A stretch of DNA of 28,983 nucleotides from a virus. The stretch covers positions 1-28,983 of the IMG/VR virus record IMGVR_UViG_3300036770_007026, one strand, 5' to 3'. Shown one piece after another: positions 5,680 to 28,983 of this stretch (positions within the stretch are counted from its first letter, which is position 1; the number at the start of each line of letters is the position of its first letter). The notes beneath the pieces are model-generated. The model searched no databases and was not told the DNA's origin. It worked only from the letters and a program-made list of their open reading frames with translations. The translations under genes and the position numbers were made by a program.

Positions 5680-5916
5680 ATGTTTTATCCATTTGAACAA
5701 AATCTTTCTGAATTGAAAGATAATGAATTGGAAGAAAAAGTCCAGGAATTAACTAAAAAATATTATCAGGCATCGCGGTTAGGCAAGCCAGAACTGTTGA
5801 CACAAATCTCTACGTTTGTTACAATGTATAAAGATGAATTATCAAAAAGATATTATCAACGTACACAGACCGAACTCAATGGCGATTTGGATCAACTGAT
5901 CAATGTTAACAAATAA
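5680..5916 (+). CDS. Conserved small hypothetical protein
   Basis: 78 residues, starting one base after the previous stop. It is strongly charged and helical, with a probable coiled coil over residues 8-60 (SELKDNELEEKVQELTKKYY). It has no Cys, no membrane segment and no catalytic motif. It is followed with a 14-base overlap by the DnaE-like gene, so the two are probably co-translated. I cannot assign a function. Confidence 0.6.
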   Translation: MFYPFEQNLSELKDNELEEKVQELTKKYYQASRLGKPELLTQISTFVTMYKDELSKRYYQRTQTELNGDLDQLINVNK

Positions 5917-7610: not shown

Positions 7611-8356
7611 CTGTTAATGTTTATTGGACTAGATCAAATCCGGGATGGGGCGATCTAGAAAAATTAGGCTTTCCTACCAGCACATACATGAGTCCCATGC
7701 GCATCGAGGAACCAGTATCTCTCATCAAACACCTAGATTATAAAAATTTTTTCGGACCTCTTGTTAGTAAATGCCCAGCAGTGATCGATGATTTGAAAAA
7801 TACCTTTGTTATCAAAAGTCCTGTTGATCTTACTCTATACATTGAAAATAATTCTTTTAAAATAGATCATCAAGAATTGGACTTCGCCCAATCATTTATA
7901 GGTGAACCCCAGGGAAAATTCGGAGTGCATCAGTTATCTTTCTGTTACAATTTTTTCAGCGAAAAAAGTTTAACTATAACTCAGTTGCCCGCATTTTATG
8001 ACAGTAATAGTTTTATTAATAATACCTTTGCTATATCTGGTAGTTTTGATATTGGACGCTGGTATAGACCTTCCGGTAAACCTGCGTTTATTATAAAACC
8101 AGACGCTAAGAAAATAACTATAAAGCAAGGTGATGCCTTGCTTTATGTAAAATTTAATACACCAGACAAAATTAAACTAGTCGAATTCGATGACAGCGAA
8201 TTTTTAGCAATGAAAGAACGCAGTCCAGAATGGATCTGCGGGACACTAAAAAGGCACACAAACAGTATTATATCCCTATCAAAATGTTACGAAATATTCG
8301 ATCAATACAAAATGCGCAGGCGTGTTTTAAAAACAATTAAGAAAAATTTAATTTAA
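7607..8356 (+). CDS. Conserved hypothetical protein (249 aa)
   Basis: Starts in the ATGA overlap with mazG. Mixed alpha/beta composition with many aromatic residues, opening VNVYWTRSNPGWGDLEKLG and containing FDIGRWYRPSGKPAFIIKP around residues 148-166. It is soluble, with no signal peptide. The pattern is familiar from marine T4-like phages, where it stays unassigned. Position between MazG and the clamp loader gives only a loose hint of a role in nucleotide or replication metabolism. Confidence 0.6.
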   Translation: MTVNVYWTRSNPGWGDLEKLGFPTSTYMSPMRIEEPVSLIKHLDYKNFFGPLVSKCPAVIDDLKNTFVIKSPVDLTLYIENNSFKIDHQELDFAQSFIGEPQGKFGVHQLSFCYNFFSEKSLTITQLPAFYDSNSFINNTFAISGSFDIGRWYRPSGKPAFIIKPDAKKITIKQGDALLYVKFNTPDKIKLVEFDDSEFLAMKERSPEWICGTLKRHTNSIISLSKCYEIFDQYKMRRRVLKTIKKNLI

Positions 8357-8367
8357 AAGGCTCAACA

Positions 8368-9288
8368 ATGAAAGAACTATGGGTAGAAAAATATCGTCCT
8401 AAAACACTAAACGAATATGTTTGGAGAGACGACGAACAAAGAAAACAAGTACAGACTTGGATCAAAGAAAAAAGTATTCCTCATCTACTGCTAAGTGGTA
8501 CGCCGGGTATCGGAAAAACTACTATGGCTAAAATGCTGATCAATGAAATTGGTATTGAAGATTATGATGTTCTAGAAATCAATGCTTCCAGAGAACGTGG
8601 ACTAGACTTGATGAAAGAAAAAATAACCAATTTTGTCAGCATGATTCCCTTTGGCCCTTTTAAAGTAGTTCTTTTAGATGAGGCAGATCGACTAACACCG
8701 TTCGCCCAGGATGCCCTAAAAGGCGTCATGGAAGAATACAGCAATTTTAGTAGATTCATTTTAACCTGTAATACTCCTAGTATGATTGTGCCAGCGATTC
8801 ATAGTCGTTGTCAGCAATTTCATTTTACAAGATTGGACCCCGTAGAATTTACCGCCAGGGCCGCTACTATTCTTGTAAATGAAGAAATAGATTTTGAATT
8901 AGATGTCTTGGATACTTATGTGAAATCAACATATCCCGACTTACGAAAATGCATTAACCTGTTACAACAAAATAGTAGAGATAGTAAATTATACACACCA
9001 AATCAAAATGATACCGGAACGCTAGAATGGAAATTTGATATGGTCGAACTATTCAAGGCAGGAAAAATCACAGAAGCACGTAAAATGCTTTGCGGTAAAG
9101 TTCAAGCAGACGAAATCATTGAAATTTATAGATGGTTGTATAATAATCTCGATATCTTTGGCAGCGACGAAAATCAAGATAAGGCGATACTTATCATTAA
9201 GCAAGGAATCGTTGATCATCCTATTTGCGCAGATCCAGAAATTAATCTATCAGCCACTTTAGTTAGGTTGGCTAAATTAAATGGTTAA
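8368..9288 (+). CDS. 44: Sliding clamp loader ATPase, gp44-like
   Basis: 306 residues (T4 gp44 is ~319). The N-terminus LWVEKYRPKTLNEYV is the classic RFC/clamp-loader opening. Walker A GTPGIGKTT spans 44-52, Walker B VVLLDEAD 100-107, sensor 1 is LTCNTPS (132-138), and SRC at 146-148 carries the arginine finger. The C-terminal ~140 residues form the collar-type helical region. It would form an ATPase ring that opens the gp45 clamp and loads it on primer-template DNA for gp43 polymerase. In T4 the clamp also activates late promoters. No obvious gp45 is in this window. It overlaps the next gene by eight bases. Confidence 0.88.
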   Translation: MKELWVEKYRPKTLNEYVWRDDEQRKQVQTWIKEKSIPHLLLSGTPGIGKTTMAKMLINEIGIEDYDVLEINASRERGLDLMKEKITNFVSMIPFGPFKVVLLDEADRLTPFAQDALKGVMEEYSNFSRFILTCNTPSMIVPAIHSRCQQFHFTRLDPVEFTARAATILVNEEIDFELDVLDTYVKSTYPDLRKCINLLQQNSRDSKLYTPNQNDTGTLEWKFDMVELFKAGKITEARKMLCGKVQADEIIEIYRWLYNNLDIFGSDENQDKAILIIKQGIVDHPICADPEINLSATLVRLAKLNG

Positions 9289-9772
9289 GAAAAGTAATGT
9301 TACTAAAGGTAAGGATAGTTATGATGCCGAATTAAAAACCGGGCTAGTTGCTTTTTTTAATAAAAATGTCACACCATATCCCACTGATGTTGGAGCACCT
9401 AGTTTCGATCTAATTCCTGTCCAAAAACAAAAGGACATAATGATCAATCATGCTCGAATGTATGCTCAACAAGAATATGATAGAATAATGGAATTAGTTA
9501 AAGTTTTACAAAAACAAGCAGCCAATATCAAACGCCGGCTAGATGTAACAGACATGGTACACTCTGCGGAATATCAATTCCAAATAGTCATGGGGCATTG
9601 CTACTGGTTAGCATGGGATACAAGAAAACAAAAAATGCTATTAGTTACATTGGGGCCTAAAGACTGGGCAACTGGCGCTCCGGAAAATTATGATTATCAA
9701 ATGTGTGTTAAGTATATGGGCGACCATACTTGGTTAGAAGTTGACGACTTAGGAAATCCTATAAATGAATAA
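9281..9772 (+). CDS. Conserved hypothetical protein, DUF2452-like; gp62 position
   Basis: 163 residues, overlapping the clamp loader gene by eight bases and so co-translated with it. The sequence has GAPSFDLIPV, then a long helical segment (residues ~50-90), then VHSAEYQFQIVMGHCYWLAW and LGPKDWATGAPE. This order (GAPxF, helix, YxFxxxxGxxYxL, P.xW) recalls DUF2452-family proteins found in bacteria and phages. In T4 the clamp loader's small subunit gene 62 sits next to 44, so a gp62 role is possible by position, but I cannot see gp62-specific residues. Family resemblance is moderate and function unknown. Confidence 0.5.
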   Translation: MVKKSNVTKGKDSYDAELKTGLVAFFNKNVTPYPTDVGAPSFDLIPVQKQKDIMINHARMYAQQEYDRIMELVKVLQKQAANIKRRLDVTDMVHSAEYQFQIVMGHCYWLAWDTRKQKMLLVTLGPKDWATGAPENYDYQMCVKYMGDHTWLEVDDLGNPINE

Positions 9773-10007
9773 CAGATACATGATAGTTTGTTACGTGAAA
9801 AAACCAGATGGTAAGTTTGATGAACTGACTGAATTTAAAAGACACTATAGAACCAGCCATTTGCAAACTGCCAAGGTCATACTAGATCTTAAAGAAAAAA
9901 AAGTCATTAAAAATGGTCTAAATCCCGATGCCTCCTATGGAGATATGATCGAGTTTTATAAAAGGATGATAGGAGATCGTTTGACCCCCTATCTACCTAA
10001 AGATTAA
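9765..10007 (+). CDS. Conserved small hypothetical protein
   Basis: 80 residues, overlapping the previous gene by eight bases. It begins NNRYMIVCYVKKPDGKFDEL and is a small soluble alpha/beta protein with basic patches (LKEKKVIKNG) and a C-terminal DMIEFYKRMIGDRLTPYL. It is the last gene of the + strand run. Its stop overlaps the stop of the convergent phoH gene by four bases, leaving no room for a terminator between the two. Function unknown. Confidence 0.6.
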   Translation: MNNRYMIVCYVKKPDGKFDELTEFKRHYRTSHLQTAKVILDLKEKKVIKNGLNPDASYGDMIEFYKRMIGDRLTPYLPKD

Positions 10008-10741
10008 TTATCACCGTATATAGATAATATTTCTTTTACTGCTTCGTGTCGTTCGATATCTCCTACCGTAAAATGACACAGATCCACGTATCTATGATTT
10101 TCAAAATTATTATAGAGATTCAAGAACTCTAAAAGGCCATTGTTACTAGGACGGTCTGCTTGCTGAAGATCACCGGTAACTACCATCTTGGACCCTTGAC
10201 CTAATCTAGTAAGTAACATCTTCATCTGGCTGGGCGTAGCATTTTGCATCTCATCTGCGATAATCACAGCGTTTTTGAACGTTCTGCCTCTCATGTATGC
10301 TAAAGGACTGGTTTCAATCACCCCCTCGGTTATCATATTAGTAATTTCTTTAGCATAGTAATTTTCTGCAAAAACATCCATTATAGGTTTAGTCCAGGGT
10401 TCCATTTTTTGCTGTAGGTCCCCAGGTAAAAACCCATGCTCTTCGTCCACTGATACAGCAGGCCTAGTAATGATAATCTTATAAGCATCCCCATATTTGA
10501 GTTGATCAATCGCCCATTGCACCGCAAGCATGGTTTTACCCGTACCGGCTGGACCGATAGCAAAAACTATCATCTTTTCAGGATTGTTAAGTTTTAACAG
10601 GTAAGATTCTTGATTGAGGTTTTTTGGGTAGATTTGAACCCTATGACGCTTTTGATGTTGATTATCTACTAAATTGATAACGTTTGACTGCTGATCTTGA
10701 TGAGAGTAAGACTTGTTTGCTACTGCTCTTTTACGCTTCAT
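10004..10741 (-). CDS. phoH: PhoH-like P-loop ATPase
   Basis: 245 residues on the reverse strand, with AAGGAGG upstream of the start (10753-10759 on the + map). A basic N-terminal tail (~40 residues) precedes the PhoH core: Walker A GPAGTGKT at 63-70, the conserved ITRPAVSVDEEHGFLPGD (91-108), Walker B VIIADEMQNA at 159-168, and LLTRLGQGSKMVVTGDLQQ. This matches the C-terminal ATPase domain of phage and bacterial PhoH, often described as an RNA helicase-like or phosphate-stress protein, whose true function in phages is unsettled. It is the only reverse-strand gene here, so it needs its own promoter, presumably in the divergent region at 10742-10883. Confidence 0.88.
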   Translation of the reverse strand: MKRKRAVANKSYSHQDQQSNVINLVDNQHQKRHRVQIYPKNLNQESYLLKLNNPEKMIVFAIGPAGTGKTMLAVQWAIDQLKYGDAYKIIITRPAVSVDEEHGFLPGDLQQKMEPWTKPIMDVFAENYYAKEITNMITEGVIETSPLAYMRGRTFKNAVIIADEMQNATPSQMKMLLTRLGQGSKMVVTGDLQQADRPSNNGLLEFLNLYNNFENHRYVDLCHFTVGDIERHEAVKEILSIYGDN

Positions 10742-10883
10742 ATAAGGTTAGCCCTCCTTGTTAAGTGCTAGGCACGGACCTTGGACCGTTGTGCCCGTAC
10801 CGAGCACAAAAGTATTTAACAAAGTCCTCAAAAAGTTAACTACAATGATAAACTTCTCATCGATAAATACAAAGGGAGATATT
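10742..10883. promoter_or_regulatory. Divergent intergenic region between phoH and gene 10884
   Basis: 142 bases without a convincing gene; the + frame stays open from 10758, but that N-terminus is unlike the family and has no good ribosome site. The region holds the phoH ribosome site (reverse), alternating GTGC/GCAC tetramers at 10765, 10772, 10791 and 10804 that can form alternative hairpins, a direct repeat GGACC-TT-GGACC, a weak sigma70-like pair on + (TTAACA at 10816, TACAAT at 10841, long 19-base spacer) and the late-like box at 10862. Both transcription units probably start here. Confidence 0.5.
10862..10869 (+). promoter_or_regulatory. T4-late-like promoter box GATAAATA
   Basis: GATAAATA followed by C, 14 bases before the ATG at 10884, in non-coding DNA. 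The match to TATAAATA is 7 of 8. The spacing is tight: transcription starting about six bases downstream would begin next to the AAAGGGAGAT ribosome site, giving an almost leaderless message. Confidence 0.45.
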
Positions 10884-11405
10884 ATGGCTGATATTAAGGA
10901 CGTTATACAAAATATAGAGCAGATCTATGGATCTAATAATAGTCTAAACATACTAAAAGATTTCGAGCGTGTTATAGACGAATTAGATGTCTATGTTTTT
11001 GAAAATTGGATCGACGGCGAATTGATCGCTGGCCCAAAAGAAAGTCGTTATTTCGTAGAATGTACTTTCATGTGGCCTAAAGAAAAAATGCCGGAACCGG
11101 TCGGCGGGCAAAGATTACTTGATTACGGATGCAAAGTTCAATTCGCAGAAAGTCAAATGTCCAAAGTACGAAAAATTAAATCGCCCGACGATATCCGTCC
11201 AGGAACCAGAAAAGGCAAAATCGATCAGGAAGATATTTGGATGGTTAAAATTACCATGCCTAAAAAATTAATGAGTGATATCAATAGAGGTTATAAAACA
11301 TTAGATAAAAACAAAGTAGAAGATATACTTAATCAAAATAATGTCGTTAATGTACAACCCGAACCCGCACAGGAACCAGCAAATGCAGAACAACCTGCCG
11401 CTTAA
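10884..11405 (+). CDS. Conserved hypothetical protein of T4-like phages (173 aa)
   Basis: The reading frame is open from 10758, but I place the start at 10884 (MADIKDVIQNIEQIYG), which has AAAGGGAGAT five bases upstream. The 42 residues before it are compositionally unlike the rest. The body contains DFERVIDELDVYVFENW, SRYFVECTFMWPKEKMPEP and KITMPKKLMSDINRGY, a family I associate with marine T4-like phages and which has no assigned role. The C-terminus is a Pro/Ala/Gln tail, likely disordered. It overlaps the next gene, so the pair is probably made together and may form a complex. Confidence 0.65.
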   Translation: MADIKDVIQNIEQIYGSNNSLNILKDFERVIDELDVYVFENWIDGELIAGPKESRYFVECTFMWPKEKMPEPVGGQRLLDYGCKVQFAESQMSKVRKIKSPDDIRPGTRKGKIDQEDIWMVKITMPKKLMSDINRGYKTLDKNKVEDILNQNNVVNVQPEPAQEPANAEQPAA

Positions 11406-12123
11406 TGAAGGTTTGAGATCTAACGATCTCAAAGAAATGATGTACAACACCTTAGAGATTGATACCTATAAATCTAAAATGGGAGAAGATCGAGATGTAT
11501 GTGTGCTTTCTTTTAGAGTAAAAGATCGAGCACCGGCCAAGGATCTAATGGAATTCATCGAGAAAGGTTACAATTTTGTATTAGATGCCGATGTAAGTTC
11601 CGGTGAAAACAAACAAGGAGAATATTTGGTTTTCGTCGAATTAGATCGTACAGAAAAACTTGCAGAACAGATACAAGAATTGATGTATGGTATTAAGAGA
11701 CTTACAGAAATAGATTCTTACAAATTTAGATATCATAAAAATAGTAAAGATTATGATTTAACCACAGAATCAATTAAATCTCTTGTTCCTTCCACTCCGT
11801 TAGATTATGAAAAGGCAATGAATAGATTACAGGTAGAGAATTACAAAAGATTTTTCAATAAAACTCTCATGGACGATTTATCATTAGAAAAAGACATTAT
11901 TACATTTTATAAACCTTTTAATAAATCATACAAGTTTAAAATTATCGAAGATCAAGACACAATAACTATAGCAGAGGACGCAATATCTTTAGATGAAAAA
12001 TCTATAGGAGAAACATTTTGGCTTACTAAAATGTTTGGAGATTATAATATCGCCAAGATCGGTGAAAATTTTCTATTCACCAACGGAAACAAATCAATTT
12101 TATTACAGAGGATAGACCAATGA
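11383..12123 (+). CDS. Conserved hypothetical protein of T4-like phages (246 aa)
   Basis: The frame is open from an ATG at 11341, but the ATG at 11383 (MQNNLPLNEGLRS) has AGGAA at proper distance, reduces the overlap with the upstream gene to 23 bases, and directly precedes the conserved LRSNDL opening. The first half has DVCVLSFRVKDRAPAKDLMEF and GEYLVFVELDRTEKLAEQI, while the C-terminal half is beta-rich (TFWLTKMFGDYNIAKIGENF). It is a recurrent partner of the preceding gene in aquatic phages. Function unknown; possibly virion-associated. Its stop overlaps the endolysin start (ATGA). Confidence 0.6.
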   Translation: MQNNLPLNEGLRSNDLKEMMYNTLEIDTYKSKMGEDRDVCVLSFRVKDRAPAKDLMEFIEKGYNFVLDADVSSGENKQGEYLVFVELDRTEKLAEQIQELMYGIKRLTEIDSYKFRYHKNSKDYDLTTESIKSLVPSTPLDYEKAMNRLQVENYKRFFNKTLMDDLSLEKDIITFYKPFNKSYKFKIIEDQDTITIAEDAISLDEKSIGETFWLTKMFGDYNIAKIGENFLFTNGNKSILLQRIDQ

Positions 12124-12749
12124 GTTTTACATTCGACTTTAAAAAAGAGCATCTACAGTCATTGATAGGAAACAATCCCTATCTAGATTATTGGTATAAC
12201 GCACTATGCGAAATACTACCTGTATATGAAATCAATACTCCGGAACGTGTGGCTGCATGGCTGGCACAGTGCGCACACGAAAGTGGCTATTTTAAATTTC
12301 TAAAAGAAAATCTCAACTACCGCGCAGAAAGTCTATTAAAAACTTTTCCTAAGTATTTCAAAACTCTAGAGGAAGCAAAACAATACGAACGTCAACCAGA
12401 GAAAATCGCCAACAGAGTCTATGCTAACCGTATGGGCAACGGTGACGAAGCATCGGGCGATGGTTTCCGTTATCTAGGACGCGGTCTCATACAATTAACT
12501 GGTAAGAATAACTACACATTCTTCGCTGCCAGCATCGATACTCCATTAGAACAGATTCCAGAATATCTACAGACATTCGAAGGTGCTGTTCAGAGCGCTT
12601 GCTGGTTCTGGGAACAGAACAATCTCAATCAATTCGCTGACAGTAAAGATATCGTCACTATGAGCAAACGCATCAATGGCGGTACTATCGGTATGGAAGA
12701 TCGCATCATGAAGTACGAAAAGTGCCTTAAGATGTTTGGAGCAAAATAA
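12120..12749 (+). CDS. GH19-type endolysin
   Basis: 209 residues: a stand-alone glycoside hydrolase family 19 (chitinase-like) domain without signal peptide. The probable acid is E54 in WLAQCAHESGYFKF; the second acidic cluster is GNGDEASGDGFRYLGRGLIQ (106-125), followed by LTGKNNY. This family cuts peptidoglycan sugar chains in phages. The lack of a signal sequence means it needs a holin to reach the wall. It heads the lysis cluster and abuts the spanin gene (stop and ATG share one base). It is a second, distinct GH19 from the LysM-GH19 protein at 24845. Confidence 0.88.
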   Translation: MSFTFDFKKEHLQSLIGNNPYLDYWYNALCEILPVYEINTPERVAAWLAQCAHESGYFKFLKENLNYRAESLLKTFPKYFKTLEEAKQYERQPEKIANRVYANRMGNGDEASGDGFRYLGRGLIQLTGKNNYTFFAASIDTPLEQIPEYLQTFEGAVQSACWFWEQNNLNQFADSKDIVTMSKRINGGTIGMEDRIMKYEKCLKMFGAK

Positions 12750-19991: not shown

Positions 19992-21101
19992 ATGAGAGAC
20001 CTTTTAAGTAAATTAGATGCTATCGTAAGCGAAACAGCACTGAATCCTAACGATCCCAAAGGCGATTATGATGCCAAAAAGAAAGCCCTAGATAACCTAG
20101 AAAGGGGCGGAGAAACTGACAAGGCTGCTATCCAACAACGTAGACTAGATCTAGACAAAGAAGCCAAAAGCAAAGGTGTCAAAGAAAGCACAGTTTTCGA
20201 AATCGGTGATGCGTTTGGCATTAGTTTTTCAGAAGATCACGAAATCGCAACAGAAATCGTTGGTTTCGTAGAAGATGGTATCGTTATTGAACTAGATGAT
20301 ACAGCATTAGGTATGTTAGAAGAGCAGGGTGTCTTGTTTTTAGAAGGCGAACTGGTCAACGAAGAAAAACAAAAAGGTCTAGACGGTAAAGCCTGCTGGA
20401 AGGGCTACAGACGCATGGGCACCAAGATGAAGGGCGGCAAGCGTGTAGACAACTGTGTCAAAGTCAAAGAAGACGAAGATGTAGAAGAAAGCGGACTACA
20501 ATACTACACAGGTAAAAAGAAATACGGCAAAGATGGTATGGCTGCACTGGCCAAAGCAGGACGCGAAGGAGCCAGTGAAGAAGAACTAGGACGCATCAAA
20601 GATAAATTCAAGAAAGAAGATCACGGACCCGAAGATCCCGAAGCAGATTACAATGTTGGCGAATATGACCGTGAAGGTGACATGGCCAAAGATCAACTAC
20701 GTACCGTCAATGATGCTGCCAAAGAACTCTACAGCATCATCCAAGCAGACGAAAATCTCCCTGAGTGGGTACAGGCTAAAATCACTAAAGCAATGGATTA
20801 CTTAGACACGGCCCGTGATTATATGAAAGCCAACAAGTATGCTGAAGACTTTGACATGGATGAAGCCAAGTATCAAGGCAAAGAAGTTCCCCTAGGCAAG
20901 AAACTGCCAGGCGATGTCAAGAAATCAAAAGTATATGTACGCAAGCCCAACGGCAAAGTGGTCAAAGTAAACTTCGGCGACAAAAAAATGCGTATCAAGA
21001 AAAGCAATCCGGCACGTAGAAAATCTTTCCGTGCTAGACATAACTGTAAAAATCCAGGTCCACGTTGGAAGGCACGTTATTGGTCTTGTAGGAGCTGGTA
21101 A
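19992..21101 (+). CDS. Modular basic protein, capsid-cargo candidate
   Basis: 369 residues built from several short modules that I recognise as free-standing pieces in other marine phage proteins: GKACWKGYRRMGTKMKGGKR with a second Cys at 155 (residues 132-156); KKYGKDGMAALAKAGREGA (177-195); YDREGDMAKDQLRTVNDAAK with WVQAKITKAMDYLDTARDYM (225-278); and a very basic Cys-bearing end (YVRKPNGKVVKVNFGD ... PGPRWKARYWSCRSW). The N-terminus MRDLLSKLDAIVSE resembles the leaders of the following genes. Sites of the form VEE|S (164-167) and MDE|A (289-292) resemble gp21 protease sites. A DNA-associated internal head protein is inferred. It overlaps the next start (TAATG). Confidence 0.6.
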   Translation: MRDLLSKLDAIVSETALNPNDPKGDYDAKKKALDNLERGGETDKAAIQQRRLDLDKEAKSKGVKESTVFEIGDAFGISFSEDHEIATEIVGFVEDGIVIELDDTALGMLEEQGVLFLEGELVNEEKQKGLDGKACWKGYRRMGTKMKGGKRVDNCVKVKEDEDVEESGLQYYTGKKKYGKDGMAALAKAGREGASEEELGRIKDKFKKEDHGPEDPEADYNVGEYDREGDMAKDQLRTVNDAAKELYSIIQADENLPEWVQAKITKAMDYLDTARDYMKANKYAEDFDMDEAKYQGKEVPLGKKLPGDVKKSKVYVRKPNGKVVKVNFGDKKMRIKKSNPARRKSFRARHNCKNPGPRWKARYWSCRSW

Positions 21102-21433
21102 TGTTATTGAAAGAAATGTTTAGTCCTATCGGGGCACCCAAAGAAGAAGAAGATATCAATTGGTTAGATGATCTTAAATTTTTTATCGATAACGACGATA
21201 GAATGCTTAATCAATTTTTCTTTCCTGCTGTTAAAAAACACAAACTTCATCAGGGCAATCCAAATGCTTATAAACTCTATATTAAACCGCTGAGTAAATG
21301 TAAAGAAGCCTATTGTGAGAAATTCGAAATCGAAAAGCCTGAAGAAAAATTTACAAAAGAAAAAATTATTGAATTAGCCAAATATATTGCTTCAGAGCAA
21401 GAAAAATATTTAAAAAAAGGCGATTACGAATAA
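21101..21433 (+). CDS. Tagged small conserved protein (MLLKEMF leader)
   Basis: 110 residues, with start and stop overlaps on both sides (TAATG). The leader MLLKEMFSPIGAPKEEED is followed by a conserved helical body: INWLDDLKFFIDNDDRML, NQFFFPAVKKHKLHQGNP, YKLYIKPLSKCKEAYCEKF and KEKIIELAKYIASEQEKYL. There are two Cys five residues apart (CKEAYC). I know this family only as a recurrent small protein in aquatic T4-like phages. The leader matches its neighbours' tag, so packaging into the head is possible. Function unknown. Confidence 0.6.
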   Translation: MLLKEMFSPIGAPKEEEDINWLDDLKFFIDNDDRMLNQFFFPAVKKHKLHQGNPNAYKLYIKPLSKCKEAYCEKFEIEKPEEKFTKEKIIELAKYIASEQEKYLKKGDYE

Positions 21434-23148
21434 TGCTTCTAAAAGAATTATTCGAAGATACTGTTAAACATGTGACCTTCTGTTTCGGCAGGATGAATCC
21501 CCCCACCATAGGACACAAGCAGGTGTTGGATACTATGAAAAGCCAAGGTGGCGAGATGAAGATATTCGTCAGCCAGAGCCAGGATCCAAAAAAGAATCCT
21601 CTAGATTACTCGACCAAAGTCAAGTTTATCAAGGCCATGTTTCCTGAATATGCCGGAGATGTGGTAGAAGATTCGAGCCTGAATACTGTGGTCAAGGTAG
21701 CGTCATATCTCTATGATCAAGGTTATACCGCGGCAACATTCGTAGCAGGATCAGATCGTATCGATGCTATGAAACAATTATTAAATGATTATAATGGTGT
21801 AGAAGGTAAAAGTCACGGTTACTATAAATTCGAAGTTTTAGATTTCGCATCCAGCGGCGAACGTGAAGATGGGGCCGAAGGCATTGCCGGTGTTAGTGCA
21901 TCTGGTGCTAGAGCCGCGGCTGCCAATGGAGACTTAGAAGCATTCAAAGAAGCCACAGGGGTTGGAGAATTATCACAGAAATTATACGATGCTGTGCGAA
22001 AAGGAATGGGTATCAGCGAAGATTTAGACAAATCACTGCAAGAAGCTATATCGCCCGAAGAAGCCATAAGGAGCATAGTGAGCACAGCAGACAGCATAAC
22101 CAAAGTCTATGGTGATCTCAAGACCATGGCAGAGAAATGGGTATACAACAACGGCACGTTGAAAGGCTTCCACAGGAATGCCGCCGGAGTAGGCAAGCGT
22201 TGGTATGACACATTCTTCTGGAACAATATGGATAATGATCTAAGATTGTTGTTGGCGAAAAATCCCAAAGCCGCAGGTAAGCTGCGAGACTTTTTCGATA
22301 TAGAACGCGATGACAAAGGTCATATAAGTTTTACTATCATAGGAAGAAGCCTACCAAGGATACTTAATCACGTAGGTGAGCAGATGAACAACAAAGATCT
22401 AAAGCGTTTCGCTGCGGAATGGTTTAGGAAGCACAAAGACTACGAAGACTATCTCGGCAGAGTAGAAGCAGAAGTCAACGACGAAGAAGATGATGACTTC
22501 ACACCTGCACCTAAACAGCCTAAAGATAATGTAGTAGGACGCCAGAATGCTGCTGCAGAAGATATGGTCAATCAGATCCTGCGAAGCATAGACAAGAAAG
22601 TGGCAGGTGAGATACGCAATGCCATTGCCCGTGAACCTAATAAACTACAGGCACTGCAGAGGGAGTTAGCCAAACGCGATATCAAGGTAGGCGAATCACT
22701 GGATGAAGATTGGCGCAAGAAGTTGGCTGCGGCAGGAGTAGCGGGAGTAATGGCTATGAATCCCGCAGTAGCAACAGAAAAAGATTCTATTCCTATCGTA
22801 GCAACTATCGTTATTGACGGTGAAACTAAGCGCTTGGACCTCACACCTAAAGGATTTGATGATGTCCGAGATGCCGAGAAATGGTTAGACAAGTTCATGC
22901 GTGATCGTGGTATCATGAATTGGCAAGGAAAGATAGAAAGAGGTGAGCCAGGTACAGGTCAGTATCAGCGTGTGAGAATCATGGGTGCAGGTGGATTAGA
23001 AGCCGCCAACAATGAGGATATACGCAAAGTTAAAGGTGGTTACAGATTAGTCAGTAAAAAATCTGGAAAAAACCTAGGAACATATCCTACCAAAGCCGGC
23101 GCAGAAAAAAGAGAACGAGAAGTCCAATACTTCAAGCACAAGGGTTGA
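21433..23148 (+). CDS. Tagged nucleotidyltransferase fused to multi-module C-terminus
   Basis: 571 residues. After the tag MLLKELFED, residues 11-195 form a cytidylyltransferase-like (HIGH superfamily) domain: GRMNPPTIGH at 19-28 (the TxGH nucleotide-binding motif), SQSQDPKKNPLDYSTKVKFI, VAGSDRID at 104-111 and VSASGAR at 154-160 in place of ISSTxxR. Relatives are NMN/nicotinate adenylyltransferases; the exact substrate is not visible. A protease-like site LQE|A lies at 202-205, at the domain border. The rest contains helical modules, an alanine-rich hydrophobic stretch (AAAGVAGVMAMNPAVA) and a basic end (GGYRLVSKKSGKNLGTYPTK ... YFKHKG). An enzyme delivered with the DNA is plausible. Confidence 0.68.
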   Translation: MLLKELFEDTVKHVTFCFGRMNPPTIGHKQVLDTMKSQGGEMKIFVSQSQDPKKNPLDYSTKVKFIKAMFPEYAGDVVEDSSLNTVVKVASYLYDQGYTAATFVAGSDRIDAMKQLLNDYNGVEGKSHGYYKFEVLDFASSGEREDGAEGIAGVSASGARAAAANGDLEAFKEATGVGELSQKLYDAVRKGMGISEDLDKSLQEAISPEEAIRSIVSTADSITKVYGDLKTMAEKWVYNNGTLKGFHRNAAGVGKRWYDTFFWNNMDNDLRLLLAKNPKAAGKLRDFFDIERDDKGHISFTIIGRSLPRILNHVGEQMNNKDLKRFAAEWFRKHKDYEDYLGRVEAEVNDEEDDDFTPAPKQPKDNVVGRQNAAAEDMVNQILRSIDKKVAGEIRNAIAREPNKLQALQRELAKRDIKVGESLDEDWRKKLAAAGVAGVMAMNPAVATEKDSIPIVATIVIDGETKRLDLTPKGFDDVRDAEKWLDKFMRDRGIMNWQGKIERGEPGTGQYQRVRIMGAGGLEAANNEDIRKVKGGYRLVSKKSGKNLGTYPTKAGAEKREREVQYFKHKG

Positions 23149-23152
23149 TACG

Positions 23153-24316
23153 ATGAAAGCCAAAGAATTTGAAATAAAGAAAAGAGATCCCAACTGGCGA
23201 GCCATGCAGGACATACGACGCAGTGGCGCAGGTGGTCAGCACAAAGATAAGAAAAAAGCCGCCAAGCAAGGTGAGGTCAAGCATAAAGGACAGATGGCGG
23301 AAGGCTCCGGGAACAATGACAACAATGATTTCTATTCTGGATTATACGCAGAACTGTTAGGCGATGTGAACAACCATTCAGTGACCGACATGGTCAACAC
23401 TAAAAATAGCATCAAACGTGCGTTAGAAAGTGGCCGACTAAGCCTAGCCGATGTCAAATCAGAAATCCATCAACTTGAATCTGAACTTAAAAAGCAAGGT
23501 GTGGCGGAAGGCTCGTATACTACAGAAAAACAAATCAAAACTAGAATTCGTCAAATAATGTATGATCGTAAATTGTCAGGTACGGAAAGTAATGCAGGCG
23601 AATTAAATAGGCTAAAACAGCAGTTAAAAGATATTCGCAGCCAACAAGATGTCTCGGAAGGCGGCGAACCCGATGAAAAATATTTAGACAAAGTCATCAG
23701 CGACCTACACAAGGATGCACTGGGGTTCCGTCCGGATCAAGAGTTCGGCCAAGAGTGGATGTCAAGCAGTTTCGAAGAGAAACTCGAGATCTATCACAAC
23801 TTACTGAAGAGTCTGCACAGCGATATGGATGAAGGCATCGGTGGTACCATCGTGGGTGGTGTAGGACAGTTCTTCGGCAACAAGATCGATCCCCTGGCTG
23901 GTGAAATAATGAGAGCCCACGGTGAGATAGCTGGCCGTAAAGCAGAATACACCATCAGAAAGTATATGCATCTGCTAAAGCAGGCACTTGAGAAACAACT
24001 GAAATCTGGTGACGAGAACGAAGATATGAAAGAAACACAAGACGATTGGGGCAGCATGAGCCACAGAGAATTCAAACGTCGAGAACTGCAACACGAACTG
24101 GGACACGAGGATGATCCCGAATTCCAAAGGCAGATGCGAGAAAAAGATCGTGGCCCGTGGTATATCAGGATAGACGGCAAGATTTATAAGCAGAAGGGGG
24201 AACCTAAAGTGTTCGACTGGAAGAAAGGCGCCAATAACTATGCTCTGGCTATCGTAAAAAATCGTCCCGAGTTAAAAGATAAAACCGTATTAACAAGAAA
24301 TCCTGTAGATCAATAA
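23153..24316 (+). CDS. Tagged mosaic protein with repeated xAEG linkers
   Basis: 387 residues. Tag MKAKEFEIKK, then a basic module DPNWRAMQDIRRSGAGGQHK with KDKKKAAKQGEVKHKG. MAE|G (48-51), VAE|G (117-120), VSE|G (167-170) and MDE|G (225-228) separate the modules; each has the hydrophobic-x-E|small pattern of T4 prohead protease sites. The end module (SHREFKRRELQHELGHEDDP, GPWYIRIDGKIYKQKGEP, DWKKGANNYALAIVKNRPEL) is one I recognise from other marine phages. No catalytic residues are visible. Cutting at these sites would release five pieces. A late internal head role is inferred from tag and sites. Confidence 0.55.
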   Translation: MKAKEFEIKKRDPNWRAMQDIRRSGAGGQHKDKKKAAKQGEVKHKGQMAEGSGNNDNNDFYSGLYAELLGDVNNHSVTDMVNTKNSIKRALESGRLSLADVKSEIHQLESELKKQGVAEGSYTTEKQIKTRIRQIMYDRKLSGTESNAGELNRLKQQLKDIRSQQDVSEGGEPDEKYLDKVISDLHKDALGFRPDQEFGQEWMSSSFEEKLEIYHNLLKSLHSDMDEGIGGTIVGGVGQFFGNKIDPLAGEIMRAHGEIAGRKAEYTIRKYMHLLKQALEKQLKSGDENEDMKETQDDWGSMSHREFKRRELQHELGHEDDPEFQRQMREKDRGPWYIRIDGKIYKQKGEPKVFDWKKGANNYALAIVKNRPELKDKTVLTRNPVDQ

Positions 24317-24525
24317 TGGAACTTGAAGAATTAAAACGTCTGGCTGGTATCACAGAATTCAAAGGTTACCAACCATACGGTGGTAGCAATATTTCCATCA
24401 CTGGAATGGAAAAACAAGAATTAGAAAAGAAACATAATATCAAACCCGGGACGCCCGAATGGTTTCAGTTATGGTTTTCGAAACCTTATCTCACAGGTGA
24501 ACCACCAGTAGGAAAAAGAAAATGA
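24316..24525 (+). CDS. Tagged small conserved protein ([12 protein letters not shown])
   Basis: 69 residues, coupled to the upstream gene by TAATG and to the next by ATGA. The leader [14 protein letters not shown] is followed by a short conserved module [18 protein letters not shown] and [20 protein letters not shown], familiar from small phage proteins of unknown role. No Cys and no membrane segment. Its place in the run and its leader link it to the cargo-like group. Confidence 0.55.
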
Positions 24526-24848
24526 TCGAAATAACCGATTCGGCGAAAATTAAAATCATCGATCTACTATCTGAAGAAAATGACCCTACTTTGAAATTAC
24601 GAACATTTGTTCAAGGTGGAGGATGTAGCGGATTTCAATATGGATTTACGTTTGATCAAGACCAGAACGACGACGATTTTGAATTTCCTTTAAATGAGCA
24701 TCATAAAGTTTTAATAGATTCTATGAGTATGCAATATCTCCAAGGGGCTGTGATAGATTATAAAGAAGATTTATCGGGATCAAGTTTTTCAATAAAAAAT
24801 CCTAATGCAGAAACAACATGTGGTTGCGGCAGTAGTTTTTCAATATGA
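24522..24848 (+). CDS. A-type Fe-S carrier (IscA/ErpA-like)
   Basis: 108 residues. The family's three conserved Cys are present: C35 in [12 protein letters not shown], and C100 and C102 in TTCGCGSSF. The core [20 protein letters not shown] is the standard beta/alpha segment. A-type carriers accept Fe-S clusters from the Isc/Suf machinery and pass them to target proteins. It has an ordinary N-terminus ([12 protein letters not shown]) and lacks the tag of its neighbours, so it probably acts in the cytoplasm during infection. It overlaps both neighbours (ATGA), so it is co-translated with the tagged genes. No isc or suf partner is in the window. Confidence 0.88.
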
Positions 24849-26056
24849 GAGCACACGAATTCGTCACTGAAAGAAAGCGTAAACGCAAAAAGCCTCGTTG
24901 GGCGGCTTACGGTCCCGGTCCCTATGGCGGCTACGGATTTGCTACTGGTTATAGTGGAGATGGTGGCGGTGGCGGTGCTGTAGGAGAAGCATCTTATCCT
25001 GGTAATATAGGAATGATGGAACTACACAAATTCTTTTCGAAGGCCACAGATTTTGAAAAGAACCTGCTGAAAGATTTAATCGAGAAAAAAGATTTCAGCC
25101 GTGCTTGGGCATTGATACAAGGTATTACAGGAGTTAAACTACAGGGCAAAGAATTTGAGCACTTTGCCGCAGAAGGTTGGAAAGATACGTTAGCAGGATT
25201 AGCCTTAGGTGCTGGTGTTGCGTTGGGCAGTGGCGCTGCTGAAGCCAAGGTAGAAAAGGTACAGGTCAGCAGAGGCGATACGGTATATTCTATCGCTAAA
25301 GCCTTTGACACCACTCCGCAGATAATACAAAAATTAAACAAATTAGATAAAGACTTTACCATCAAACCCGGGCAAACTATCAAAGTCCCAGCAGGCGAAG
25401 TTGTAGATATTCCAGACAGACCTTCAAAAGAAAAGAAAGCAGAACCAGAAAAGAAAAAGCAATCTAAACCAGATGCTAGTAAAACTCTAACAGGCACCAT
25501 ACACGAATCTGCTTTAACCAGAGCCGCTAGAGAAGCAGGTATCACAGATCCTATAGAACTGGCGGCGTTTCTAGCACAGACAGCACACGAAAGTGATAAC
25601 TTCAAAGCGATGGTTGAATACGGTGATAAGAGTTATTTTAAACAGTACGAACCCAGGTTTCTCAAAGATAAGAAAACTGGTAAGATCATCATAGATCCTA
25701 AAACTAAAAAATATAAAAACTTTAATGAAAAAGCAGAAGACTTAGGCAATGATAATCGTGGCGATGGTGTTAGATATAAGGGGCGAGGTTATATACAGAT
25801 CACTGGCAAAGACAACTACCGTCGTGTAGGCGAAAGAATAGGTGTAGATCTCGTAAATAATCCCGAGCTGGCGGAAAATCCAGAGATAGCAGCCAAAATT
25901 GCTATAATGTACTGGAAACTACGCACACAACCCAAAGTAGATGATTTCAACGATGTTCGTGCCGTGACAAAAACTATCAATCCTGGATTAGATCAATTAG
26001 CGAAACGAAAAGAACTTTTTCAAGATTTTAAAAAATTTAAGTTAGCGTCAAGATGA
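24845..26056 (+). CDS. Tagged LysM-GH19 lysin, virion cargo candidate
   Basis: 403 residues. The tag MRAHEFVTE closely resembles the T4 IPIII targeting peptide. Next come a basic stretch [10 protein letters not shown], a Gly/Tyr-rich region ([20 protein letters not shown]), a VGE|A site (46-49), a helical module, an AAE|G site (108-111), a weak hydrophobic helix (115-133), LysM at ~137-181 ([24 protein letters not shown]), a charged linker and a GH19 domain (~215-400) with likely acid E249 in LAQTAHES and [20 protein letters not shown]. It would bind and cut peptidoglycan. The tag and cleavage sites suggest packaging in or on the virion and use at entry rather than release, unlike the endolysin at 12120. 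Confidence 0.75.
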
Positions 26057-26253
26057 AAATTAGTGAAATACTCAACGAAAACTTTGCTGACGGTAAGCGC
26101 AAAGGAAAAAGCCGGCCTGGGCGTGTGAAACGTGCTGGTGCGTCTTGTAAGGGATCGGTCTCAGATCTACGTGCCCGTGCTAAAAAATATGGTGGCGAGA
26201 AGGGCAAAATGTATCATTGGTGTGCTAATATGAAGGGCGGTAAGAATAAATAA
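26053..26253 (+). CDS. Tagged small basic Cys protein
   Basis: 66 residues with start ATGA overlapping the lysin stop. Leader [15 protein letters not shown], then a very basic module KGKSRPGRVKRAGASCKGSV, DLRARAKKYGGEKGK and MYHWCANMKGGKNK with two Cys. This short module is recurrent in aquatic phages. Net charge is strongly positive, which would suit DNA condensation inside the head. An ILNE|N site could be where the leader is removed. Function is inferred from composition. Confidence 0.58.
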   Translation: MKISEILNENFADGKRKGKSRPGRVKRAGASCKGSVSDLRARAKKYGGEKGKMYHWCANMKGGKNK

Positions 26254-26259
26254 TATATT

Positions 26260-26445
26260 ATGAAAATAAAAGAAATTTTCGAAACAGCCACAGCAGAAAC
26301 AACAACATCTGCAAATGTTACTGTGGGTGCTGTTTATAAAAATAAACCCGGAAAAACACCCAAGAACAAAGACGGCACCGCTAAAAACGCCTTAGATATG
26401 AAAGATGCTAACTTGCTAACGGGCGGCTCTTTGGTCAAGAGATAA
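26260..26445 (+). CDS. Tagged very short protein (61 aa)
   Basis: 61 residues with the leader MKIKEIFETATAE, then Thr/Ser-rich residues and a basic region with NKPGKTPKNKDGTAKNALDM and ANLLTGGSLVKR. No fold is evident and it is likely disordered. The ribosome site is weak. An AATAAATA lies at 26245-26252, and its stop sits inside the promoter box at 26441. Because the leader matches its neighbours, I keep it as a real gene. Confidence 0.5.
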   Translation: MKIKEIFETATAETTTSANVTVGAVYKNKPGKTPKNKDGTAKNALDMKDANLLTGGSLVKR

Positions 26446-26448
26446 ATA
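26441..26448 (+). promoter_or_regulatory. T4-late-like promoter box GATAAATA
   Basis: GATAAATA followed by C, 27 bases before the ATG at 26476 and overlapping the stop of the preceding gene. A TAGGAAA ribosome site follows at 26462-26468. Fourth copy of the motif in the window. Confidence 0.5.
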
Positions 26449-26475
26449 CAATATCAACCTTTAGGAAATCTAAAA

Positions 26476-27396
26476 ATGGACTTCAAATCGTTAATCAGCA
26501 AAATCAGCGAGTTAGATGACAAAATCGAAACTATTGCCGCTCCTGAATTGCCAAAAACCATTAAACTCAACGAAGATGCAGAACTTCGTGTATTAGCCGG
26601 TACTTCGAGCATTCTTGAAGAATCTAAAAAAATGAAAAAAGAAGAGAAAAAAGAGAAAGTCGAAGAAGGCGGTCTCGATATGAATCTTATTAAATCTGCA
26701 CAAAAAGGTCAAGAAGGCAAGCCCATTGGCAAGCCGGATCCCGAAAGCGATAAGAATGTCAAGAAAAAATACGGTTATAGAATGGACGGTGAGCCTGCAG
26801 AACGTGATGACGATCCTACCAAGCAAGAGCGTCGTGGTCGCAAGCGCAAGAACGAAGATGTAGAAATCAACACAGAAAAGTTCAAAGACAAGTTTACTAA
26901 GATGGTTGAAGCCAAGAAAGAAAAAATGTCTAAAAAAGACAAGAAGATGGACGAAGCTAAAAAACCGGACGATGATAACGACGGCGTTCCAAACTGGGCA
27001 GATAAGAAGCCAGGTGAAGATGACAATGCTGACAAGAAGGGAGAAAAGAAAGAAACCAAAGGTCTTTCTGCCAAGCAGAAAAAACTTCCTCCTGGATTAC
27101 AAAAGGCTATCGCTAAAAAGAAAGGCACAGCAGAAAGCGTAAAGACTTCTAAAAAAGTTGTAGCCGAAAGCGTAGAACCAAAACTAACACTTAAAGATAT
27201 GTTGAAGATCGTCAAAGAGAGCGGTGGACAACAGCAGATCGATCCTTTAGATAAAGCATTATGGACCTGGGCTAATCGCGTGGCAGCCAGCAAGATCCAG
27301 GAAAGCCAGAAAGCAGAAATCTTTGCTGCTATGATCTACGAGCGGAACGGTGGAAATTTTGAGATGTATGACGTTCTATCAGAAGACCAAAAGTAA
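26476..27396 (+). CDS. Highly charged prohead-core-like protein with multiple protease-type sites
   Basis: 306 residues, mostly Lys and Glu. The leader MDFKSLISKISE resembles the tags upstream. At least seven hydrophobic/Thr-x-E|G/A/S sites are visible: VEE|G (62-65), MVE|A (143-146), MDE|A (158-161), TAE|S (218-221), VAE|S (229-232), VKE|S (247-250) and IQE|S (274-277). T4 core proteins (gp22, gp67, gp68) are likewise charged and cut to small peptides by gp21. A DxDxDG loop (DDDNDGVPNWAD, 165-176) looks like a thrombospondin type 3 calcium site. The C-terminus (ALWTWANRVAASKI onward) is a folded-looking helical module. A prohead core or internal head peptide precursor is inferred. It ends before the terminator at 27415. 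Confidence 0.55.
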   Translation: MDFKSLISKISELDDKIETIAAPELPKTIKLNEDAELRVLAGTSSILEESKKMKKEEKKEKVEEGGLDMNLIKSAQKGQEGKPIGKPDPESDKNVKKKYGYRMDGEPAERDDDPTKQERRGRKRKNEDVEINTEKFKDKFTKMVEAKKEKMSKKDKKMDEAKKPDDDNDGVPNWADKKPGEDDNADKKGEKKETKGLSAKQKKLPPGLQKAIAKKKGTAESVKTSKKVVAESVEPKLTLKDMLKIVKESGGQQQIDPLDKALWTWANRVAASKIQESQKAEIFAAMIYERNGGNFEMYDVLSEDQK

Positions 27397-28128: not shown

Positions 28129-28983
28129 ATGAGTTACGTTGACGCATTCTATGATCGCGACGATGACATTATTCGTGTCGTTGAACGCAATGACAAAGGC
28201 GAAAGGCATTATAAAGATTATCCTGCTCGCCACTTGTTTTATTATTACGACCCCCGGGGAAAATATCAATCGATCAAGGGAGAACCCTTGTCTAGAGTCT
28301 CCTGTAAAAATGTTAAAGAATTTAGAAAAGAATTAGCCATACATTCAAATAAACGTTTATATGAATCGGACATCAATCCTATCTATCGATGTTTAGAAGA
28401 TCACTATCTCAATGTCGATGCTCCAAAACTAAATGTAGCATTTTTCGATATTGAGGTAGATTTCGATCCAGAGCGTGGATACGCATCGCCTGAAGATGCA
28501 TTTATGCCGATCACTGCGATCGCTGTTCACCTACAATGGTTAGATACTTTAATATGCCTCGCTATTCCTCCAAAAACATTGTCCATGGATGAGGCCAAGA
28601 AAGCCGTAGAAGAATTTCCAAATACCATACTGTTTGACAACGAATCAGAAATGTTGGACAATTTCTTACATCTTATCGAAGATGCTGATGTATTAAGCGG
28701 TTGGAACTCAGAAGGATTCGATATTCCCTATACTGTAAACCGTGTCATTAAAGTTTTAGGTAAAGAAGATACTCGCAGATTCTGTCTATGGGATCAATAT
28801 CCTAAAAAACGCGAATATGAAAAATACGGAAAAACTGCTACGACATACGATCTTATCGGACGAGTGCATCTAGATAGTCTAGAAATGTATAGAAAATATA
28901 CCTATGAAGAAAGGCATACATATCGACTAGATGCTATTGGCGAGATGGAGATCGGAGAATCAAAGACGGTATACGAAGGATCG
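28129..28983 (+). CDS. 43: DNA polymerase, family B, gp43-like (3' truncated)
   Basis: The ATG at 28129 has GGAG five bases upstream, and the frame stays open for 285 codons to the window edge. The visible part is the N-terminal domain and most of the 3'-5' exonuclease. ExoI is AFFDIEVDFD with D107 and E109; ExoII is GWNSEGFDIPY with D198; FCLWDQYPKK and YDLIGRVHLDSLEMYRKY follow. T4 gp43 carries its exonuclease acids at D112, E114 and D222, so order and spacing fit. It copies the phage genome with the gp44-loaded clamp. The polymerase active site lies outside the window. Unlike structural genes it is expected early, consistent with the sigma70 promoter upstream. Confidence 0.93.
   Translation, partial: MSYVDAFYDRDDDIIRVVERNDKGERHYKDYPARHLFYYYDPRGKYQSIKGEPLSRVSCKNVKEFRKELAIHSNKRLYESDINPIYRCLEDHYLNVDAPKLNVAFFDIEVDFDPERGYASPEDAFMPITAIAVHLQWLDTLICLAIPPKTLSMDEAKKAVEEFPNTILFDNESEMLDNFLHLIEDADVLSGWNSEGFDIPYTVNRVIKVLGKEDTRRFCLWDQYPKKREYEKYGKTATTYDLIGRVHLDSLEMYRKYTYEERHTYRLDAIGEMEIGESKTVYEGS

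Follow-up and report, generated by a model that had tools for sequence, protein, structure and literature searches.

Leaders resembling the T4 capsid-targeting sequence on unlike proteins, enzymes included, in an uncultured T4-like phage, and a small gene carrying a copy of the capsid arm

Several proteins of bacteriophage T4 (IPI, IPII, IPIII and Alt) carry short N-terminal leaders, capsid-targeting sequences (CTSs), that are cut by the gp21 protease. As set out in portions of one source (PMC9026906), the first ten residues of IPIII suffice, positions 4 and 7 directing targeting and positions 8 and 10 processing; T4 leaders span 10-19 residues with L/I at 8 and Glu at 10, and gp21 cuts after L/I-x-E. 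By itself the IPIII leader is reported to bring a foreign protein into the head, being cut off in the process, and Asp at leader position 10 stops processing, not targeting (same portions of PMC9026906). In the T4 genome the leaders read MKTYQEFIAE in IPII and IPIII, MELITELFDE in Alt and MAKINELLRE in gp24, that of IPI being longer. Here we compare with this system nine genes of a 28,983-base virus record (IMGVR_UViG_3300036770_007026, analysed over its whole length and called the window below), the products of which begin with leader-like sequences.

Two other described systems stand close to this locus. Enzymes have repeatedly been reported in cyanophage virions, among them cytidylyltransferase/NMNAT, S-adenosylmethionine (SAM) hydrolase and kinase; in the accessible portions of these reports packaging and contamination were not separable for the authors, two reports leave contamination open, and the leader is unmentioned. 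Small proteins resembling the N-terminal arm of the major capsid protein (MCP; gp23) are represented by T4 61.1 and are labelled "major capsid" or "major head protein" in some GenBank records and in PHROG 696, so automatic annotation has already met the arm likeness. Among the matches listed, open-licence PMC literature searched by title described neither a capsid-arm copy nor, for cyanophages and marine phages related to them, any capsid-targeting leader.

We propose, with a probability of about three in four, that the leaders of the window act as T4-type capsid-targeting sequences, loading mixed cargo into the head; the phage probably packs several unlike proteins there, enzymes included. 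As in T4, the leaders are short and N-terminal, have, as far as the spacing is kept, hydrophobic residues at both targeting positions and, in about six of nine, Glu at the presumed cut, and stand on unlike proteins, and gp21 and gp23 families are encoded by two relatives of the window. Unlike in T4, the core lies one residue earlier, several tagged genes share one run near a DNA polymerase gene, the tagged proteins include a cytidylyltransferase and a LysM/GH19 hydrolase, and some members are without a cut site. The known system is the T4 CTS, of which the leaders here would be a variant with a shorter core, with mixed cargo encoded in a cluster and with a capsid-arm copy.

The nine genes form one forward run (19992-27396) which also contains a gene for an Fe-S carrier, and many genes of the run abut or overlap the preceding one. 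Their open reading frames (ORFs) and N-termini are exactly as described in an earlier note on this DNA, made from its letters alone. Glu at position 5 followed by a hydrophobic residue is present in seven of the nine and in 0/35 remaining window genes, among which only 14369 has Glu5, followed there by Lys. The Fe-S carrier is indeed untagged, as the note had said, and the T4 leaders of IPIII and Alt that it quoted agree exactly with the T4 genome. At Met residues inside the window proteins the same combination occurs at a rate of 7/173, which gives a binomial p of 6e-9 for 7/9; under a stricter null, with the columns of 41 called N-termini shuffled, at least seven were reached in 15 of 2000 runs. 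This criterion was picked after the data had been seen, and a pattern with T4-derived positions was therefore used for testing. Codons of the leaders differ synonymously between genes, with the exception of Glu5, always GAA, so the likeness lies mainly at the level of the peptide.

Four leaders are clear (21433, 24845, 26053 and 26260), consisting of a hydrophobic residue or Ala, x, Glu, two hydrophobic residues and, directly or after one more residue, Glu. Those of 19992 and 24316 are longer, ending in VSE or ITE, and that of 26476 is weak. The ending is L/I-x-E in 21433, 24316, 26053 and 26260 and V-x-E in 19992 and 24845, so that a plausible terminal cleavage Glu is seen in about six of nine leaders; in 26476 a later Glu is not kept. 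The core of the lineage can be written hydrophobic-x-E/D/Q-hydrophobic-hydrophobic-(x)-E and begins one residue earlier than in T4. The T4 spacing, matched exactly in many relatives, is kept in the window from residue 3, 21433 and 26260 being one residue short before Glu, 19992 and 24316 longer, and three others partial. With a leader profile trained on 18 leaders from other phages, the named nine score higher as a group than the remaining 35 window genes (Mann-Whitney p 7e-4), with scores of 21101, 19992 and 23153 near or below zero and 24316 outside the top 20. In structural models, residues 1-15 of the 21101 product fall below a predicted local distance difference test (pLDDT) value of 50 and are followed by a confident helical domain; for this model, fairly confident overall (mean pLDDT 80.7), comparison with PDB folds gave no match with E <= 0.001; residues 1-14 of the 19992 product are likewise below 50, in a model that is poor as a whole (mean 55.5).

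The T4-type pattern requires hydrophobic residues at 4 and 7, [ILVFM] at 8 and Glu at 10; its residue sets were fixed after leaders of several phages, some of S-CREM2, had been seen, and 33 S-CREM2 starts were already known at that point. In T4 itself it finds 5/261 called genes (ipII, ipIII, alt, gp24 and 61.1; IPI is missed) against 0.28 expected from internal Met. Counts in virion proteomes cover S-CREM2 and S-SCSM1; proteomes are also published for S-CREM1 (14 proteins) and S-SZBM1. Table 3 of the report on Synechococcus phage S-CREM2 has 52 virion proteins detected by mass spectrometry (PMC10665884). The pattern is present in 6/219 S-CREM2 genes, five of them among these 52 (Fisher p 0.003): SAM hydrolase gp6, gp13, kinase gp14, gp136 and cytidylyltransferase gp154, three of which are enzymes. 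Detection of gp13 in virions is reported from one peptide (PMC10665884, same portions), and the sixth match, gp175 (55 amino acids), is outside the virion list. The Cas9-like virion protein gp12 of the same phage has FASFMAE followed by Ala at residues 19-25, away from its annotated start. In S-SCSM1 (260 genes called; 48 proteins virion-labelled in the record, 45 by the count given in the accessible part of the paper) three genes match: NMNAT, labelled as virion protein, UvsX, and SSCSM1_30, which has no virion label and is placed between virion-labelled genes. For the two phages pooled, the pattern occurs in 6/100 virion proteins and 3/379 others (p 0.0035). In a 50-kb stretch of phage C48C1, 5/78 genes match against 0/310 internal Met, three of them in the cytidylyltransferase block. 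The pattern, its positions taken from T4 experiments, thus picks five S-CREM2 virion proteins with one other match among 219 genes, which makes the packaging question testable in any sequenced T4-like phage; it also points to probable cargo in uncultured lineages, that of the window included.

Simpler features did not perform as well. The combination emphasised in the earlier note, Glu5 plus a hydrophobic residue, fails by itself as a virion predictor (S-CREM2: 1/52 detected against 9/167 undetected proteins), the full T4 spacing doing better. A looser core pattern was rejected (5/52 against 6/167 in S-CREM2, p 0.09), and so was [LIVF]xE in the first 16 residues alone, which is not predictive (11/52 against 30/167).

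The product of 21433 is cytidylyltransferase-like (Pfam CTP_transf_like, 7.9e-7; PHROG 3041, cytidyltransferase, 1e-45); a PDB sequence search with it found no relative at E <= 0.001. The cytidylyltransferase T4-GC190 is reported in virions of S-SM1 (Sullivan 2010, PMC3037559, in the portions at hand), where it starts MKKFSAFLNE followed by Ala. Reports on S-SM1, S-SCSM1 and S-CREM2 place this family in virions, and in each of these phages its leader is of the T4 type. Its starts read MKSFFQFLSE in S-SM2, MKSFLQFLKE in S-SCSM1, MKNFSSFLTE in S-CREM2, MKKFSEIIE in Melnitz and MLLKELFE in the window. Among the best 80 of 438 cytidylyltransferase loci of the S-SM2 type the pattern is kept in 80/80, positions 4, 7, 8 and 10 being constrained and position 9 varying (N, T, S, K, G); these loci are close relatives, so the figure does not stand for 80 independent events. 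In C48C1 (OQ984149, 63514) the annotated cytidyltransferase start lies inside the domain, and an upstream GTG gives MIKNFSQYLLE; judged from the sequence, this GTG is probably the true start, the annotated one coming too late and hiding the leader. Tagged proteins found in virions of relatives thus comprise 5/6 in S-CREM2, 1/3 in S-SCSM1 and the S-SM1 cytidylyltransferase, within the available parts of the sources.

Within the lineage of the window the leaders are widely conserved (Table 1), counts referring to unique IMG/VR orthologues with a match reaching the first residues; those with a match beginning further in, such as L056 and L061 (21433) and L017 (24845), were left out. The window-type pattern was derived from the window itself and is not independent for orthologues. 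It is present in 6/321 genes of a 281-kb contig (G002) and 5/132 of a second related record (G003), against 0/1282 and 0/531 internal Met, and five of these eleven matches lie outside the run (G002 6610, 98705 and 99127; G003 17662 and 17778). In the 26053 family, whose window member has a net charge of +15 after the leader, the mature part (ENFADGK..) is constant while leaders vary (MKISEILN-, MKAHEFIT-, MRISDIIN-, MRIAELL- and others); three of 12 unique orthologues start MP.. and are without leader. A gp21-family protease, above the Pfam cut-off each time, is encoded in 2/10 related records, G002 and G003, and both of these also encode gp23. Leader-like starts are also seen there beside gp23, on the gene in gp22's place, the protease and an acidic neighbour (G002 89371-91956, G003 8345-10970).

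A separate surprise beside the leaders, going beyond what the earlier note had said of 26260, is the sequence that follows the leader in the product of this gene. In G002 the MCP reads ..RKYLAE/SATAGATSAGNVATLNR.. and the 26260-family protein MKIREIVE/SATAGATSAGNVAIGAVY, the slash standing after the Glu in question. From Glu on, copy and arm are identical in 14/14 residues and in 2/14 codons; full identity of the peptide, despite synonymous differences in 12 codons, points to selection on the amino-acid sequence itself. The motif [ST]-[AP]-x-x-G-x-T-x-x-G-N follows Glu in 79/79 MCP loci (best 80 of at least 599, one cut at its start being left out). The leader Glu in the 26260 family stands at the MCP position of the Glu preceding the mature arm, and the resemblance of the following residues to those of MCP, a gp21 substrate in T4, supports cleavage at this Glu. 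The window copy, TATAETTTSANV, is more diverged (score 34 against the G002 and G003 arms; the copies of these two score 67 and 60).

Called genes of each of eight phages were then compared with the phage's own MCP arm, S-SM1 and S-SM2 in part only. The best non-gp23 match to the post-cleavage arm is such a small gene in 7/8 phages, with rank 3 in Melnitz, and every copy has its best match in the arm of the same phage or of another phage from the same group. Scores, with the next best, are 71/39 for T4 61.1, 62/42 in S-SM1, 83/39 for S-SCSM1_97, 95/40 for S-CREM2 gp160, 67/44 in G002 and 60/35 in G003; in S-SM2 the score is 40 against 32 and does not exceed the maximum of 1000 shuffles. Both S-SCSM1_97 and S-CREM2 gp160 stand among the listed virion proteins of their phages. 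When the G002 copy was searched against 12 more records with an MCP, the MCP arm was met in 12/12, and two of them (G011 and G012) also had a separate copy gene; gp23 was found in 2/10 copy-bearing records searched (G023 and G024). Leader, Glu and arm are arranged as in G002 in G011, G012 and G023; in G024 the copy is present and no leader was seen in the stretch inspected. T4 gene 61.1 (L007:18966-19130) starts MKTFKEFIKE, a full T4-type leader, and continues with a stretch resembling the gp23 arm. It has matches in 1437 phage records at E up to 1, some of which may be gp23-like genes and a few of which carry the annotation major capsid protein. The 26260 protein and T4 61.1 are alike in that each is small and resembles the capsid protein of its own phage; they differ in which capsid protein that is, and the cyanophage versions (S-SM1, S-SCSM1, S-CREM2) are without a clear N-terminal leader. 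Direct homology of 26260 and T4 61.1 was considered and is not convincing (E 0.061). We tentatively suggest, at somewhat less than even odds, that T4-like phages keep a small gene (26260, T4 61.1) whose product enters the prohead by its leader and, after cleavage at a site like that of the capsid protein, exposes a copy of the capsid arm, anchoring cargo or timing head maturation. The copy might take the place of the arm on the inner head wall or compete for the protease; we infer either function from its likeness to the arm.

If the leaders act as in T4, each would bind the prohead core during core assembly and bring the attached protein inside. A gp21-type protease would then cut after the last leader Glu, as the MCP-like context suggests, and the mature proteins would stay in the head with the DNA. 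By analogy with T4 internal proteins and Alt, at least some cargo may enter the next host cell and act there, and the products of 21101 and 23153 may be targeted and not trimmed, as T4 permits. The predicted cargo is mixed: an NMNAT-like cytidylyltransferase, a LysM/GH19 wall hydrolase, basic small proteins and the 26260 product with its arm copy.

A number of observations weigh against the loading of head cargo by these leaders. The core of 21101 and 23153 is present and the cleavage Glu absent, and the best profile score in the window belongs to gene 5680-5916 (MFYPFEQNLSE), a probable decoy, since Glu is not constant among similar starts in the related records (DLSE in G002, DLSA in G003). 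The window is without head genes, gp23 included, for which reason a gp21 protease is found for relatives only; the other 8/10 related records (37-147 kb, possibly incomplete) gave nothing in the gp21/gp23 search. Virion detection concerns relatives of one window family only, and the authors of the S-CREM2 proteome, in the accessible portions, left contamination of virion preparations possible (PMC10665884). S-SCSM1 alone shows no enrichment (1/48 virion against 2/212 other proteins, p 0.46), and in its matching block, between two genes annotated as DNA primase, 6/7 virion-labelled proteins (89, 90, 92, 93, 95 and 97) are untagged. The strict T4 pattern shows no excess over the nulls in G002 and G003, and in the whole Melnitz genome it marks one gene against 0.71 expected by chance; looser leaders of similar appearance occur on other genes of the Melnitz block. 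Of the five matches in C48C1, two lie outside the block. The UvsX start MDFLK[DE][IV]VKE also fits the T4 pattern (S-SCSM1 80211-81227, S-SM2 124970-125974) and is the sole match among called genes of S-SM2, where the cytidylyltransferase leader was missed by gene calling; the UvsX fit is a chance match and a warning for automatic scans. The earlier note had concluded that one tag loads many unlike proteins, enzymes included, into the head for injection. What stands of this is a T4-type leader on unlike proteins including enzymes, with relatives reported in virions and two related genomes encoding a gp21-type protease; that a single tag loads many proteins goes too far, the S-SCSM1 block having seven virion-labelled proteins and one tagged.

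Other explanations of the shared start were considered. The tagged proteins could be parts of the prohead core or scaffold that the protease cuts up and that for the most part do not stay in the head, with nothing delivered to the host. The head genes of G002 and G003 speak for this: the protein encoded between gp23 and gp21, in gp22's place, starts MLD[IF]VKQLFE followed by Asn, an LSE site stands at the beginning of the protease, and the acidic G003 neighbour starts MADKSLIEQMLERLVNE; the product of 26476, long, charged and with no domain match above the cut-off, would suit it too. Cytidylyltransferase and GH19 plus LysM domains are not scaffold parts, however, and cytidylyltransferase relatives are reported in purified virions, so we regard this explanation as unlikely. 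Still less probable is an address elsewhere in the cell, such as an amphipathic helix leading to the inner membrane or a replication site. Short hydrophobic and charged N-termini can generally serve in this way and the T4 pattern fits the recombination protein UvsX. Against such an address stand the agreement with the spacing of T4, conservation of the terminal Glu, the residues in 26260 that resemble MCP, and the detection of tagged relatives in virions.

It is very improbable that the genes are duplicates of one ancestor with the leader as the remaining likeness. Small domains are common to several mature parts in some relatives, 73/130 tagged proteins (53 loci) falling into one similarity cluster, but the cytidylyltransferase, GH19 and 26260 proteins belong to different clusters or families, and members of the 26053 family keep the same mature part with differing leaders, which in some relatives resemble the one of 24845. 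A feature of DNA or mRNA, such as coupled starts or ribosome binding, is hardly credible as the source of the likeness: Glu5 is GAA each time and the frequent overlaps would fit it, yet the other leader codons differ synonymously, and untagged 24522 overlaps its neighbours in the same manner. Capsid targeting of the T4 kind is the explanation we prefer.

The window encodes T4-like replication genes (clamp loader and a B-type DNA polymerase starting at 28129) and an endolysin. Clear enzyme domains are found in two of the nine tagged products, those of 21433 and 24845, the latter combining LysM and Glyco_hydro_19 (GH19).

Table 1. Leaders, arm copy and untagged control genes in the window (slash, presumed cleavage point; fractions, unique orthologues)
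Feature	Position	Strand	Remarks
Second GH19 endolysin, no leader	12120..12749	+	PHROG 181 endolysin; N-terminus MSFTFDFKK; control
Leader MRDLLSKLDAIVSE of gene 19992-21101 (369 amino acids)	19992..20033	+	long; putative cleavage VSE/T; [LIV]xE/[TS] in 17/17
Leader-like MLLKEMFS of gene 21101-21433 (110 amino acids, helical)	21101..21124	+	pattern in 15/15; no cleavage Glu
Leader MLLKELFE of cytidylyltransferase-like gene 21433-23148	21433..21456	+	kept in 15/15
Leader-like MKAKEF of gene 23153-24316	23153..23170	+	M[KR]AK[ED][FI] in 19/19; no cleavage Glu
14-residue leader of gene 24316-24525 (69 amino acids)	24316..24357	+	[LIV]xE/[FY] in 16/16
Untagged Fe-S carrier inside run	24522..24848	+	Fe-S_biosyn; tag pattern in 0/12; internal negative control
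Leader MRAHEFVTE of LysM + GH19 hydrolase gene 24845-26056	24845..24871	+	21/21
Leader MKISEILNE of gene 26053-26253 (66 amino acids)	26053..26079	+	cleavage pattern in 9/12
Leader MKIKEIFE of gene 26260-26445 (61 amino acids)	26260..26283	+	21/21
Arm copy TATAETTTSANV in gene 26260	26284..26319	+	diverged MCP mature N-terminal arm; consensus [ST]ATAGATSAGNV
Weak leader candidate MDFKSLISKISE of gene 26476-27396	26476..26511	+	M[DN]F[KR][ST]L[IL] in 16/16

Some minor observations concern individual genes. The product of 23153-24316 has four internal [LIVM]xE[GAS] sites (MAEG, VAEG, VSEG and MDEG), possible extra sites for the protease. The C-terminal part of the 19992 product (..YQGKEVPLGKK..VVKVNFGDKKMRIKK..) seems to be repeated behind a T4-type leader in C48C1 68091-68408 (MKKFKQYIDE..AEYQGKKV..VVKVSFGD), a likeness judged by eye only. 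The window has two GH19 wall hydrolases, the plain one at 12120-12749 and the one with leader and LysM at 24845-26056; presumably, the plain copy serves lysis and the tagged copy the virion. Small ORFs that follow the plain endolysin have the look of membrane and lipoprotein lysis genes, and we tentatively read them as such.

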